64,000 bases of DNA from Engelhardtia mirabilis (GTDB taxonomy: Bacteria > Planctomycetota > UBA1135 > GCA-002686595), in NCBI GenBank assembly GCA_007751255.1, contig CP036296.1, forward strand, positions 682,001-746,000, written 5' to 3'. Made by a program: the position numbers and the translations under genes. This document shows positions 1-4,043 of this stretch, one piece after another. Every line of letters begins with the position of its first letter. Positions within the stretch are counted from its first letter, which is position 1. The notes below the pieces were generated by a model. It did not search any database and was not told the DNA's origin. It saw nothing but the letters and a program-made list of their open reading frames with translations.

Positions 1-752
1 CAGGCGACCTCGAGCAGGATCCGCTGCTGGGGGTCGAGCTGCTCGGCCTCGCGCGGCGAGATGCCGAAGAAGGCGGCGTCGAAGCGGTCGAGCCCGTCGA
101 TCCAACCGCCCCAGCGCGTGTACATGCGCCCGGGCACATCGGGGTCGGGGTCGAAGAACTCGTCCACCGCCCAGCGCTCGGGCGGGACCTCGCCGATGGC
201 GTCGCGACCCTCGGTCTGAAGCGCCCAGTAGGCCGCCGGGCTGTCGGCGCCGCCGGGGAAGCGGCAGGCCATGCCGACGATGGCGATCGGCTCGTGGTCG
301 GCGGCGTCGCGGGCGCGCAGCAGCTCGGCCTGGCGTCGGGCCAGGTCGAGCAGCTGGTCGTGATCCAGCTCGGCGAGGTCGCCGGGCCGCTCGCGCGCCT
401 CGTCGTCGGTCGCGTCGGCGGGCGGCAGATCCACGTCCACTCGCAGCACCAGCGCCAAGTAGTCGACCAGCGCCGCCGGCGTGGGGCAGTCGAACAGCAG
501 CGTCGACTCGAGCCGGCAGTCCAGCCGCGCCTCGATCCACAGCTTGAAGTCGACCGCGCGCAGGGAGTCGAAGCCGAGGTCCGGGAAGGTCTCGTCGGGC
601 TCGATGCGCTCGTCGGCCTCGAACTCGAGGAACGTCACCAGCTCCGCGCAGAGCCAATCGGTCAAGCGCCGACGGCGGTCCACCCGCGGCGCCCGCGCCA
701 GCGTGTCGAGGAACCGGTCGTCCCGGCGCGCCCCCTGGGATTGGCTGCCCAA
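1..752 (-). CDS. Type I polyketide synthase, N-terminal part (ACP then ketosynthase), cut by window edge
   Basis: The first about 250 residues of a modular synthase are present; the rest lies left of the window. An acyl-carrier domain comes first, with the phosphopantetheine serine in LGFDSLRAVDF (Ser about 63). An Asp/Glu-rich linker follows, then a beta-ketoacyl synthase start near residue 153 with PIAIVGMACRFPGG and FFGISPREAEQLDPQQR. No ATG lies upstream in frame. The best start is TTG at 752, eleven bases after the FcoT-like stop and preceded by an AGG-rich stretch; this choice is inference. Being directly downstream of the isonitrile-type genes, the N-terminal carrier domain could replace the free-standing carrier protein (ScoB/Rv0100) of known clusters and feed the ketosynthase. 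The active-site cysteine region of the ketosynthase is outside the window. Confidence 0.88.
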   Translation of the reverse strand, partial: MGSQSQGARRDDRFLDTLARAPRVDRRRRLTDWLCAELVTFLEFEADERIEPDETFPDLGFDSLRAVDFKLWIEARLDCRLESTLLFDCPTPAALVDYLALVLRVDVDLPPADATDDEARERPGDLAELDHDQLLDLARRQAELLRARDAADHEPIAIVGMACRFPGGADSPAAYWALQTEGRDAIGEVPPERWAVDEFFDPDPDVPGRMYTRWGGWIDGLDRFDAAFFGISPREAEQLDPQQRILLEVA

Positions 753-762
753 GTTCCGCTAC

Positions 763-1344
763 CTAGCTATGGGAGACGTCCGGTGCGGCCGCGGCCCGGC
801 GCTCCCGAGAGGCCGTGCCCGCGGCGCGGTCGACGATCGCCAGCGACACGTCCCCGTGGGAGTGGCCGCCCGCATCGTCGCGGAAGGAGCAGCGCGTGTG
901 CACGAGCAGGAAGCGGCTGCGCTGCACCGCGTCGACGATCTCGACCGTGCCCTCGAAGTCGCCCGTGGCCATGGGGCGGTGGAACTTGCTCGAGAAGTCG
1001 TGGATCAACACGTCGGGCAGTTGCCGCGCGAGGTACTCGTCCAGGGTCCACGACTCGAAGGCCGGCAGCAGCCCGCCGACGACCACCTGGGCCATCAGGG
1101 CGTAGACCAGTTGGTTGTAGCAGAGGTTGAACTCCACCGAGTTGAAGTGGCCGGTGTCCTGGATGTAGCAGGACTCGCCGATGGCGAGGCGCCCGTAGAT
1201 CACCGCCTGGGGATCGCCAGCGCGGGCGTGGCCGGGCAGTTCGACCACCGCCGACTTCAGATAGCGACAGTTGTCCCTGTAGGGCGTGAGCACCCTGGCC
1301 AGGAGCTCGTCGGTGACCCCGATCGATCGCGGCCCGGCGCTCAC
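763..1344 (-). CDS. FcoT/ScoD-type hotdog-fold thioesterase-like protein of isonitrile biosynthesis
   Basis: The 193-residue protein matches, from memory, Mycobacterium tuberculosis FcoT (Rv0098) and Streptomyces ScoD over most of its length. Diagnostic stretches are DELLARVLTPY (residues 12-22) and IGESCYIQDTGHFNSVEF (55-72), then CYNQLVYA. In the known pathway this family acts on a carrier-bound unsaturated fatty acyl chain, taking part in glycine addition to its beta carbon; Rv0098 was first described as an acyl-CoA thioesterase. The GTG start overlaps the stop of the dioxygenase gene (GTGA), implying translational coupling. The usual mycobacterial protein is about 183 residues, so length fits. 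Family assignment is strong; the substrate chain is unknown. Confidence 0.88.
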   Translation of the reverse strand: MSAGPRSIGVTDELLARVLTPYRDNCRYLKSAVVELPGHARAGDPQAVIYGRLAIGESCYIQDTGHFNSVEFNLCYNQLVYALMAQVVVGGLLPAFESWTLDEYLARQLPDVLIHDFSSKFHRPMATGDFEGTVEIVDAVQRSRFLLVHTRCSFRDDAGGHSHGDVSLAIVDRAAGTASRERRAAAAPDVSHS

Positions 1345-2297: not shown

Positions 2298-2435
2298 GGT
2301 CGGTTCCGGGCGCCGGCGCCCTGATTGGTCCCCGGCGCATGGCCGCGATGGGGGGAGCACCGCGACAGATCCGACTATAGTGGAACCTTCTCGATCCTTG
2401 GGGCGTCAGCCCGCCCCCTCCGCGATCGGAACGCA
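2298..2435. promoter_or_regulatory. Divergent intergenic region between dioxygenase and acyl-AMP ligase genes
   Basis: The 138 bp separate the two oppositely oriented arms of the putative isonitrile locus, so promoters for both must lie here. The stretch is locally less GC rich around 2370-2395 (CGACTATAGTGGAACC). No clear sigma-70 pair or operator palindrome was identified. Confidence 0.4.
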
Positions 2436-4043
2436 ATGCATACGCAATCGCAATCGACGCCCCGTTCAGCCGGTGGGGGTGGAGGGCAGATCCTCGCCGA
2501 AACCCTACGCCGACAGGCCCATGCGTGCAGGGACCGGACGGCTTTCGTCTTCGGTGAGCGACGTACCTCCTATTCCTCGCTCGACGAACTCACCAATCGC
2601 GTGGCCCAGGCCCTGGCGGCCGCAGGTTGCGAGCCCGGGGCGCGGGCGGCAGTCCTGGCCGGGGACAGCGACCACGTCTACGAGGTGATCGGGGGCTGCG
2701 CCAAAGCGGGGGTGGTCTCCTTGGGGATCAACTGGCGCCTGGCCCCGCCGGAGATCCGTTTCATCCTCGAGGACTCGGGCGCGCGGGTGCTGTTCGTGGA
2801 CGCGGAGTTCTACTCGAAGGTCGCTGCGGCGATCGGCGATCTGGAGGGCCTGGCGACGGTCGTGGTCCTGGAAGGGGCGGTCGAGGGTTTGACGGCCTAT
2901 GCGGCCTGGCGCGACGCGGCGCCGGCGATCGATCCGTGCCTGACACAGAGCGCCGACGACCCGGTGGTGCAGATGTACACGAGCGGCACGACGGGCCTGC
3001 CCAAGGGCGTGGTGCTCGCGAACCGCAGCTTCTTCGCGGTCGTCGACGCCATGGCCGCCGCTGGCGATGGTTGGATCGGCTGGCGCGGCGACGACGTGAG
3101 TCTGCTGAACATCCCGTCCTTCCACATCGGCGGGCTGTGGTGGGCCATGACCGGGCTGAATGCGGGAGCGACGGGCGTGATCCTGCGCGCGTTCAACCCG
3201 GGGCAGGTGATCGACCAGGTCCAACGCCACCGCGTGACCAAGGTCTGCATGGTCCCCGCGATGATGCAGATGGTGCTGGCGGAGCCGGCGGCGGCGAGTG
3301 CGGACTGGTCGTCGCTCGAGGCGATCGTCTACGGCGGATCACCGATCCCCAGGACGCTGCTCGAGCGGGCCATGGACACCTTCGGCTGCGAGTTCGCGCA
3401 GATCTACGGCCTGACGGAGACGGGCAACACGGCGGTGTGCCTGCGCCACGCGGACCACCTGGATCCCAGCGGCGAGCGCTTGAAGGCGGCCGGCCGGCCC
3501 TATCCGGGCGTGCGGGTCGAGATCATCGACCGCGAGGGGCGCGCGCTGCCGCCCCGCGAGGTGGGCGAGATCCGCGTCCATTCGCCGGCCAACATGCTCG
3601 GCTACTGGAACCGCCCCGAGGCCACGGAGGCGACGCTGCGCGACGGTTGGGTCTACACCGGCGACGCGGGCTACCTGGACGAGCAGGGCTTCGTCTTCGT
3701 CCACGACCGCGTCAAGGACATGATCATCTACGCCGGCGAGAACGTGTACCCGGCCGAGATCGAGAGCGTCCTGTGCGCCCACCCCGACGTGGTCGAGGCC
3801 GCGGTGATCGGCGTCCCCGACGAGCGCTGGGGCGAAGCCGTCAAGGCGATCGTGGTGCGGCGCGAGGGCTCGGACCTGCGCGCGCGGGCGCTCCTCGCCC
3901 ACGCCCGCGCGAGCCTGGCCGACTTCAAGGTCCCCAAGACCGTGGACTGGATCGACGCGCTCCCGCGCACCCCCAGCGGCAAGATCAAGAAGGCGCAGCT
4001 GCGCACGCCCTATTGGGAGGGGCGGGAGCGGCAGGTGAACTGA
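2436..4043 (+). CDS. Acyl-CoA/acyl-ACP synthetase (AMP-binding), ScoC/FadD10-type candidate
   Basis: The 535-residue ANL-family adenylating enzyme shows the P-loop TSGTTGLPKG (182-191), the adenine-binding YGLTET, YTGDAGYLDEQG, the hinge VKDMIIYAGENVYPAEIE and the C-terminal RTPSGKIKK with the catalytic lysine. It should activate a carboxylic acid as acyl-AMP and load it on CoA or a carrier protein. Standing head to head with the dioxygenase and FcoT-like genes, it probably fills the role of FadD10/ScoC, which loads a medium-chain fatty acid on the carrier protein. The start ATG 2436 precedes the conserved fold by about 20 residues. By sequence alone an ordinary acyl-CoA ligase is not excluded. 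Confidence 0.88.
   Translation: MHTQSQSTPRSAGGGGGQILAETLRRQAHACRDRTAFVFGERRTSYSSLDELTNRVAQALAAAGCEPGARAAVLAGDSDHVYEVIGGCAKAGVVSLGINWRLAPPEIRFILEDSGARVLFVDAEFYSKVAAAIGDLEGLATVVVLEGAVEGLTAYAAWRDAAPAIDPCLTQSADDPVVQMYTSGTTGLPKGVVLANRSFFAVVDAMAAAGDGWIGWRGDDVSLLNIPSFHIGGLWWAMTGLNAGATGVILRAFNPGQVIDQVQRHRVTKVCMVPAMMQMVLAEPAAASADWSSLEAIVYGGSPIPRTLLERAMDTFGCEFAQIYGLTETGNTAVCLRHADHLDPSGERLKAAGRPYPGVRVEIIDREGRALPPREVGEIRVHSPANMLGYWNRPEATEATLRDGWVYTGDAGYLDEQGFVFVHDRVKDMIIYAGENVYPAEIESVLCAHPDVVEAAVIGVPDERWGEAVKAIVVRREGSDLRARALLAHARASLADFKVPKTVDWIDALPRTPSGKIKKAQLRTPYWEGRERQVN

Follow-up and report, generated by a model that had tools for sequence, protein, structure and literature searches.

Five genes for a probable isonitrile-type starter and its PKS-NRPS assembly line in the planctomycete Engelhardtia mirabilis

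What starter unit is made by a small group of genes that lies next to a polyketide synthase (PKS) in the planctomycete Engelhardtia mirabilis, and what becomes of the chain that it begins? The genes occupy positions 1 to 4,043 of a 64,000-nucleotide stretch of this genome (G000; positions 682,001 to 746,000 of contig CP036296.1, or G000:C1:682001-746000), which is called the window here. Read together with the DNA to the left of the window, they probably belong to a five-gene cluster of PKS and nonribosomal peptide synthetase (NRPS) genes that has an isonitrile-type starter.

A sequence-only reading of these lines had named an FcoT/ScoD-like protein, a ScoE-like dioxygenase, a head-to-head ligase and a carrier domain fused to a ketosynthase, with GTGA coupling, and all of these are present. 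On the forward strand, an AMP-forming ligase of the fatty-acyl type (535 aa, 2436..4043; assigned from Pfam and PDB relatives) is divergent from an operon-like run of dioxygenase, FcoT, PKS and NRPS genes on the reverse strand. The run begins with a 318-aa ScoE-like Fe(II)/alpha-ketoglutarate dioxygenase (1341..2297), a member of a second lineage of the ScoE clade, and continues with the 193-aa FcoT/ScoD-like protein (763..1344; Pfam PF10862, PDB relatives and alignment) and with the N-terminus of the PKS (1..752), in which Pfam and catalytic motifs identify a carrier domain (GFDSL) and the start of the ketosynthase. The stop codon of the dioxygenase gene overlaps the start codon of the FcoT gene as GTGA (1344-1341), and the 138 bases that separate the divergent genes (2298..2435, by coordinates) presumably hold promoters for both directions. 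Within positions 1-4043, the Pfam scores are 189 bits for PF10862 (cut-off 27), 165 for TauD (PF02668) and 283 for AMP-binding (PF00501). Intact frames, these profile scores and conserved synteny rule out chance or a frame artefact.

Nothing but the edge of the window interrupts the PKS gene. In the flanking DNA, read leftwards, it extends to G000:C1:675937 and encodes a full protein of 2271 aa with the Pfam order ACP-KS-AT-DH-ER-KR-ACP, a single reducing module; the expectation that a PKS directly follows the isonitrile-type genes is thus borne out. The TTG start codon at 752 is the longest-ORF (open reading frame) choice and is uncertain. The start of the NRPS gene (G000:C1:668265-675944, 2559 aa, C-A-T-C-A-T-R) overlaps the end of the PKS gene. 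The assembly line is therefore a PKS and then an NRPS with a reductase end, and the earlier idea that the chain is handed to a PKS instead of an NRPS has to be dropped, since two NRPS modules and a terminal reductase follow the PKS. The motifs that were searched for are intact in the KS, AT (GHSVGE, HAFH), DH, ER and KR domains and both ACPs of the PKS, as well as in both C domains, both T domains and the R domain of the NRPS. The HAFH motif of the AT presumably denotes malonyl. The ten presumed specificity positions of the A domains, mapped by eye, read DAWSIALIDK in A1 and DALALGLIDK in A2; neither appears to match a lysine pocket. The cluster is taken as five genes because none of the seven neighbouring proteins that were scanned (three on the left and four on the right; a fourth left gene lies outside the scan) looks pathway-related.

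From the observed gene content and motifs, we infer the following chemistry. The ligase, which is predicted to load an acid onto the N-terminal carrier of the PKS, would first charge a carrier, probably this same N-terminal ACP, with an alpha,beta-unsaturated fatty acid. The FcoT-like protein would then add glycine at the beta carbon and release an N-carboxymethyl-beta-amino acid, and the dioxygenase would oxidise and decarboxylate the glycyl part to give a beta-isonitrile. After the ligase had reloaded the isonitrile acid on the N-terminal ACP, the KS would extend it once with malonyl, and the KR, DH and ER would fully reduce the new unit. Finally, two amino acids would be added by the NRPS, and the R domain would release an aldehyde or an alcohol. 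A metal-binding role for this product is no more than a possibility. The chief doubt in this pathway is the oxidation: lacking the ScoE residues His299 and Arg195, the enzyme would have to bind its cosubstrate and relay protons through a different arrangement of the site.

How closely, then, is the window dioxygenase related to ScoE? Its closest fold is that of ScoE, and ScoE (6dch) scores 235 bits, whereas no PDB entry from outside the ScoE/SfaA/Rv0097/MmaE set scores above 99. The structure alignment holds 28 sequences; loci L038 and L045 are absent from it, L038 having been excluded for a stop in its fetched stretch. These loci come from a scan of named genomes that gave 62 loci, 23 of the second lineage, six classical and 33 other. 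A tree was made of 45 rows: every locus from L031 to L065, two of them represented twice, the further loci L072, L079, L081 and L086, three PDB stretches and the window itself; 23 of the scan's 62 loci are omitted. In it the window dioxygenase falls in a clade of 34 rows (100/100) with ScoE, SfaA and Rv0097, which agrees with the ScoE/Rv0097 membership first proposed for it; a position outside this clade, named beforehand as a refutation, is not seen. A further 100/100 branch splits the second lineage from the nine classical rows. The gene partners also follow the clade: in stretches of 6 to 21 kb, on whose length these counts depend, FcoT is found in 22 of the 23 second-lineage loci (not in L038), in all six classical and in none of the 33 others, and KS and AT occur together in 10/23, 4/6 and 0/33, respectively.

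Active-site residues, given in ScoE numbering, were compared across nine classical, 25 second-lineage (the window included) and 36 other TauD-like rows. The iron triad (H132, D134, H295) is present in 25/25 second-lineage rows and also in 36/36 of the others, and hence is not specific. The substrate residues Y96, Y101, K193 and R310 are each found in every second-lineage row. Tyr96, Lys193 and Arg157 each mark the whole clade (9/9 classical, 25/25 second-lineage, 0/36 other), and Arg157, present in 34/34 ScoE-clade rows, corresponds to Arg153 of the window protein (1839..1841, reverse strand). The canonical alpha-ketoglutarate arginine, at ScoE position 306, has the opposite distribution (0/9, 0/25 and 36/36). 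An ordinary TauD hydroxylase as the sole reading was rejected on this residue comparison. The glycine adduct has two carboxylates, which in ScoE are held by a lysine and an arginine, and ScoE takes its acid substrate untethered (PMC7949033). The window dioxygenase is a member of the wider ScoE clade and, judged by its gene partners and substrate residues, most likely works as ScoE does, though with the cosubstrate site and the relay rearranged.

Several results weigh against this assignment or against the pathway built on it. His299 is found in 9/9 classical and 0/25 second-lineage rows and is Gly288 in the window protein (1434..1436); Tyr97, with the same counts, is Phe93 (2019..2021); and Arg195, in 9/9 classical rows and one of the 25 (L054), is Gln191 (1725..1727; all three codons on the reverse strand and placed by alignment). 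Tyr200, present in 8/9 classical rows, is missing from the second lineage, where Asp stands in 25/25. In ScoE itself, where His299 is required to turn over alpha-ketoglutarate and Arg195 and Tyr97 are relay residues, no product was detected for R195Q, Y96F or Y101F, product was lowered in Y97F, and both the isonitrile INBA and succinate were lost in H299Q (PMC7949033). No second-lineage enzyme with a measured product was found. The first proposal of exact ScoE chemistry is weakened accordingly: the clade stands, and three ScoE residues (His299, Tyr97 and Arg195) are missing in the window and in 25/25, 25/25 and 24/25 lineage rows. A Lys at ScoE position 121 (25/25 second-lineage, 1/9 classical), which is Lys117 in the window protein (1947..1949, reverse strand, by alignment), might be guessed to be a replacement ligand.

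The curated models point the same way. The window dioxygenase reaches 285 bits with the NCBIfam ScoE model NF049937 (cut-off 400 bits), and five other second-lineage proteins reach 253-293, so that 0/6 pass; three of four classical proteins do (458, 419 and 421), the exception being Corynebacterium L059 at 363, and an unrelated TauD-like protein scores 95 bits. Because its residues depart from those of ScoE and this cut-off is not reached, the label of ScoE equivalog was not adopted for the window protein. Likewise, the window FcoT scores 163 bits with the ScoD model NF049938, where the cut-off is 250. The FcoT tree is poorly resolved, with its six classical rows not forming one group and the two lineages neither clearly separated nor clearly united, and it neither supports nor contradicts shared inheritance. 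In a related cluster of genome G076 (contig C139), ligase, FcoT and PKS are kept with no dioxygenase between them, and the FcoT of this cluster (G076:C139:21500-41400, locus L027, at 7475-10160) has SGS in place of TGH, losing the histidine. The group as a whole therefore does not adhere to one starter chemistry.

The other two starter enzymes bear on what the dioxygenase would receive and where its product would go. The FcoT-like protein matches 5wsy/5wsx, which we take to be SAV606 (137 bits), and Rv0098 (2pfc, 102 bits), and alignment shows that its TGH66/N68 motif is kept; it is predicted to be a glycine Michael-addition and thioesterase enzyme. Enzymes of the CmiS1/SAV606 type attach glycine to an enoyl thioester and hydrolyse what results (PMC11284099). 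The PDB relatives of the ligase are FadD-type and feruloyl-CoA ligases, including FadD10 (4ir7, 234 bits). The ligase tree unites the cluster ligases of the two lineages (95/99) and leaves five paralogues from the window's genome outside, although these sit on long branches.

The lost residues also give room to the main alternative, in which the dioxygenase hydroxylates the glycyl carbon once, yielding glyoxylate and a free beta-amino acid that primes the PKS. In cremimycin biosynthesis, the FcoT-like CmiS1 serves a PKS by putting glycine on an enoyl thioester, after which the flavin enzyme CmiS2 frees the beta-amino acid (PMC11284099); here an iron dioxygenase would replace CmiS2, and the absence of residues that ScoE needs for its full reaction (PMC7949033) could halt oxidation early. 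We think this unlikely, however, since the ligase is of the fatty-acyl type, the ligases of the two lineages group together, and beta-aminoacyl ligases such as 7dq5, which do match an NRPS A domain, are absent from the best 60 of 222 PDB rows for the ligase. In addition, no amino-acid-oxidase-type family, and no glycine-oxidase flavoenzyme of the CmiS2 type, is found among the seven scanned neighbours, a weak argument because one of them, 2.7 kb beyond the NRPS, is an oxidoreductase of a different flavoprotein family.

Rather doubtful is the possibility that the dioxygenase acts on the N-carboxymethyl-beta-amino acid to make some other product (N-hydroxylated, imine or nitrile-type) and hence a new warhead. 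In its favour, the lid and cosubstrate site are clearly changed across the lineage and the substrate-binding residues are kept; against it, an isonitrile is the only outcome known in the ScoE clade. An isonitrile is the outcome given for ScoE itself (PMC7949033). That FcoT is a plain thioesterase, as Pfam calls the PF10862 domain, and the dioxygenase an ordinary tailoring hydroxylase with no glycine adduct involved is very improbable, given that the two genes are paired in 28/29 ScoE-clade loci and 0/33 others and that the adduct-holding lysine and arginine (roles from PMC7949033) are present in 34/34 rows.

If the starter is an isonitrile, the cluster can be set beside the systems that are known to make one. 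It resembles the isonitrile lipopeptide (INLP) systems (ScoA-E, SfaA, Rv0097-Rv0101, MmaA-E) in having an acyl ligase, a carrier, an FcoT/ScoD protein, a ScoE-type dioxygenase and an NRPS. However, its carrier is fused to a reducing PKS module instead of being free-standing; a complete reducing PKS module lies between the starter genes and the NRPS, where INLP clusters are not known to have a PKS; the A-domain pockets do not look like those for lysine; and both the lineage of the dioxygenase and the host phylum differ. INLP NRPSs presumably end in a reductase, as the window NRPS does in its R domain. In INLP biosynthesis an NRPS couples the isonitrile chain with amino acids and the products bind copper; the NRPS of M. 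tuberculosis also has an extra module (PMC9600254).

A ScoE-type enzyme and FcoT followed by a PKS, together with an acyl ligase, are also found in actinobacterial loci, those of Catenulispora (L055), Lentzea xinjiangensis (L056), Streptomyces griseoaurantiacus (L057) and S. olivaceoviridis (L058), where the PKS domains are KS-AT-DH-KR, with an additional ER in L055. These four differ in having the classical Tyr97, Arg195 and His299 and no C domain in the fetched stretch. For aerocyanidin and amycomicin, Zheng, Clardy and Liu reportedly described in 2024 how a thioesterase and a non-heme iron enzyme make an isonitrile acid, which is said to be loaded on an ACP and extended by a PKS. By gene content, the present cluster would share this PKS extension of an isonitrile starter. 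On that account the hand-over to a PKS is not new, so that the "new" isonitrile polyketide first proposed for the locus survives in part: the combination of PKS, NRPS and reductase, the phylum and the altered dioxygenase lineage do appear to be new. Aerocyanidin and amycomicin are epoxy-isonitrile fatty acids. They are finished by P450s, and the amycomicin cluster has been grouped with type I PKS clusters (PMC13273461); in the present cluster an NRPS and a reductase follow the PKS, and there is no P450 among the seven scanned neighbours, no wider search having been made. A link between planctomycetes and isonitriles was not found in the literature searched, which mostly excludes subscription journals.

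The cassette recurs in other Planctomycetota. Among 61 genomes searched, the NCBIfam ScoE model has matches in six, the window's own included (five strong and one, in G032, weak), none of them above the curated cut-off; FcoT is found in 3/392 genomes of the phylum sample. The order of ligase / dioxygenase-FcoT-PKS is kept in G020, G014, G027, G030 and G124. The G124 cluster has the architecture of the window's to its end, that of G020 comprises three NRPS modules plus a reductase, and that of G027 has a second PKS module ahead of an NRPS that is cut by the contig end; the G014 and G030 clusters are cut within the NRPS and the PKS, respectively. Four clusters are complete at this end, the window's own and those of G124, G020 and G076, and each closes with a reductase. 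Elsewhere in G076 (L028), a ligase, a dioxygenase and a divergent FcoT are present with no PKS. The planctomycete host suggested from the letters alone is supported by a contig of G030, a genome of the same family as the window's, since this contig is identical in sequence to VGZE01000076.1, a record from a Planctomycetota metagenome-assembled genome (MAG), and by the named scan, in which Planctomycetota MAGs fill the first nine rows; ranked by E-value they take the six best places, with the Hyalangium locus L051 near seventh. Seven loci (L031, L033, L034, L035, L036, L038 and L050) repeat DNA that is already present in G030, G020, G124, G014, G076 and G027, so the locus set and the genome set are not independent.

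The second lineage is found in five phyla, Planctomycetota, Cyanobacteriota, Pseudomonadota, Bacteroidota and Myxococcota. We lean, by a narrow preference, toward the view that it is a separately wired lineage of N-alkylglycine-oxidising dioxygenases that forms isonitriles, or else some new oxidation product, in the absence of the His299 and Arg195 needed by ScoE and that, in Planctomycetota, primes PKS-NRPS lines releasing isonitrile lipopeptide aldehydes or alcohols. If so, the glycine route to isonitriles would be spread far beyond Actinobacteria, with uncultured Planctomycetota among the phyla that have it, and ligase / dioxygenase-FcoT-ACP-KS would be a predictable genetic mark for isonitrile polyketide-peptides, compounds with possible roles in copper binding or enzyme inhibition. 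The lineage would also be a natural experiment on ScoE: two "essential" residues are absent and the same gene partners are kept, which would bear directly on how the proton relay and the alpha-ketoglutarate site of ScoE are now understood.

Other loci of the scan vary the theme. In Methylobacter marinus (L044, 11476-17478), ligase, dioxygenase and FcoT are followed in a compact variant by one protein of 2000 aa with three carrier stretches, KS, C, A and a thioesterase domain and no AT match; KS without AT in the fetched stretch is also seen in L042, L045-L049 and L054. Methylomonas koyamae (L042, about 2400-4300) has a tandem pair of ScoE-like genes ahead of FcoT. Pseudomonas agarici (L040, about 7900-10387) has an FcoT-like protein and a second-lineage dioxygenase, with no ligase match in the fetched stretch. 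At L021 (9722-10624; G027:C220, the same DNA as L038), a second-lineage dioxygenase adjoins what looks by eye to be a helicase gene, and the 20 kb fetched around it contain no match to FcoT, to a ligase or to a PKS; the full cluster of G027 lies elsewhere. In Okeania (L041) and Symploca (L052), dioxygenase-FcoT-ligase sets lie on the strand opposite to nearby type I PKS genes and possibly represent cyanobacterial isonitrile polyketides.

Within the genome of E. mirabilis, a search with the dioxygenase returns one match, the query itself, and there are two phosphopantetheinyl transferase matches. No Rfam family matches the window at gathering scores. The left neighbours that were scanned are a multihaem cytochrome, a protein without a match and the oxidoreductase mentioned above, which is of the iron-sulphur/pyridine-nucleotide-disulphide type (Pyr_redox_3 with 4Fe-4S). 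Those on the right are two proteins without a match, a sulfatase, and a sigma-70-type protein with repeats (6501-9797, reverse strand), in which the sigma-70-type N-terminus shares one frame with carboxypeptidase-regulatory-like repeats.

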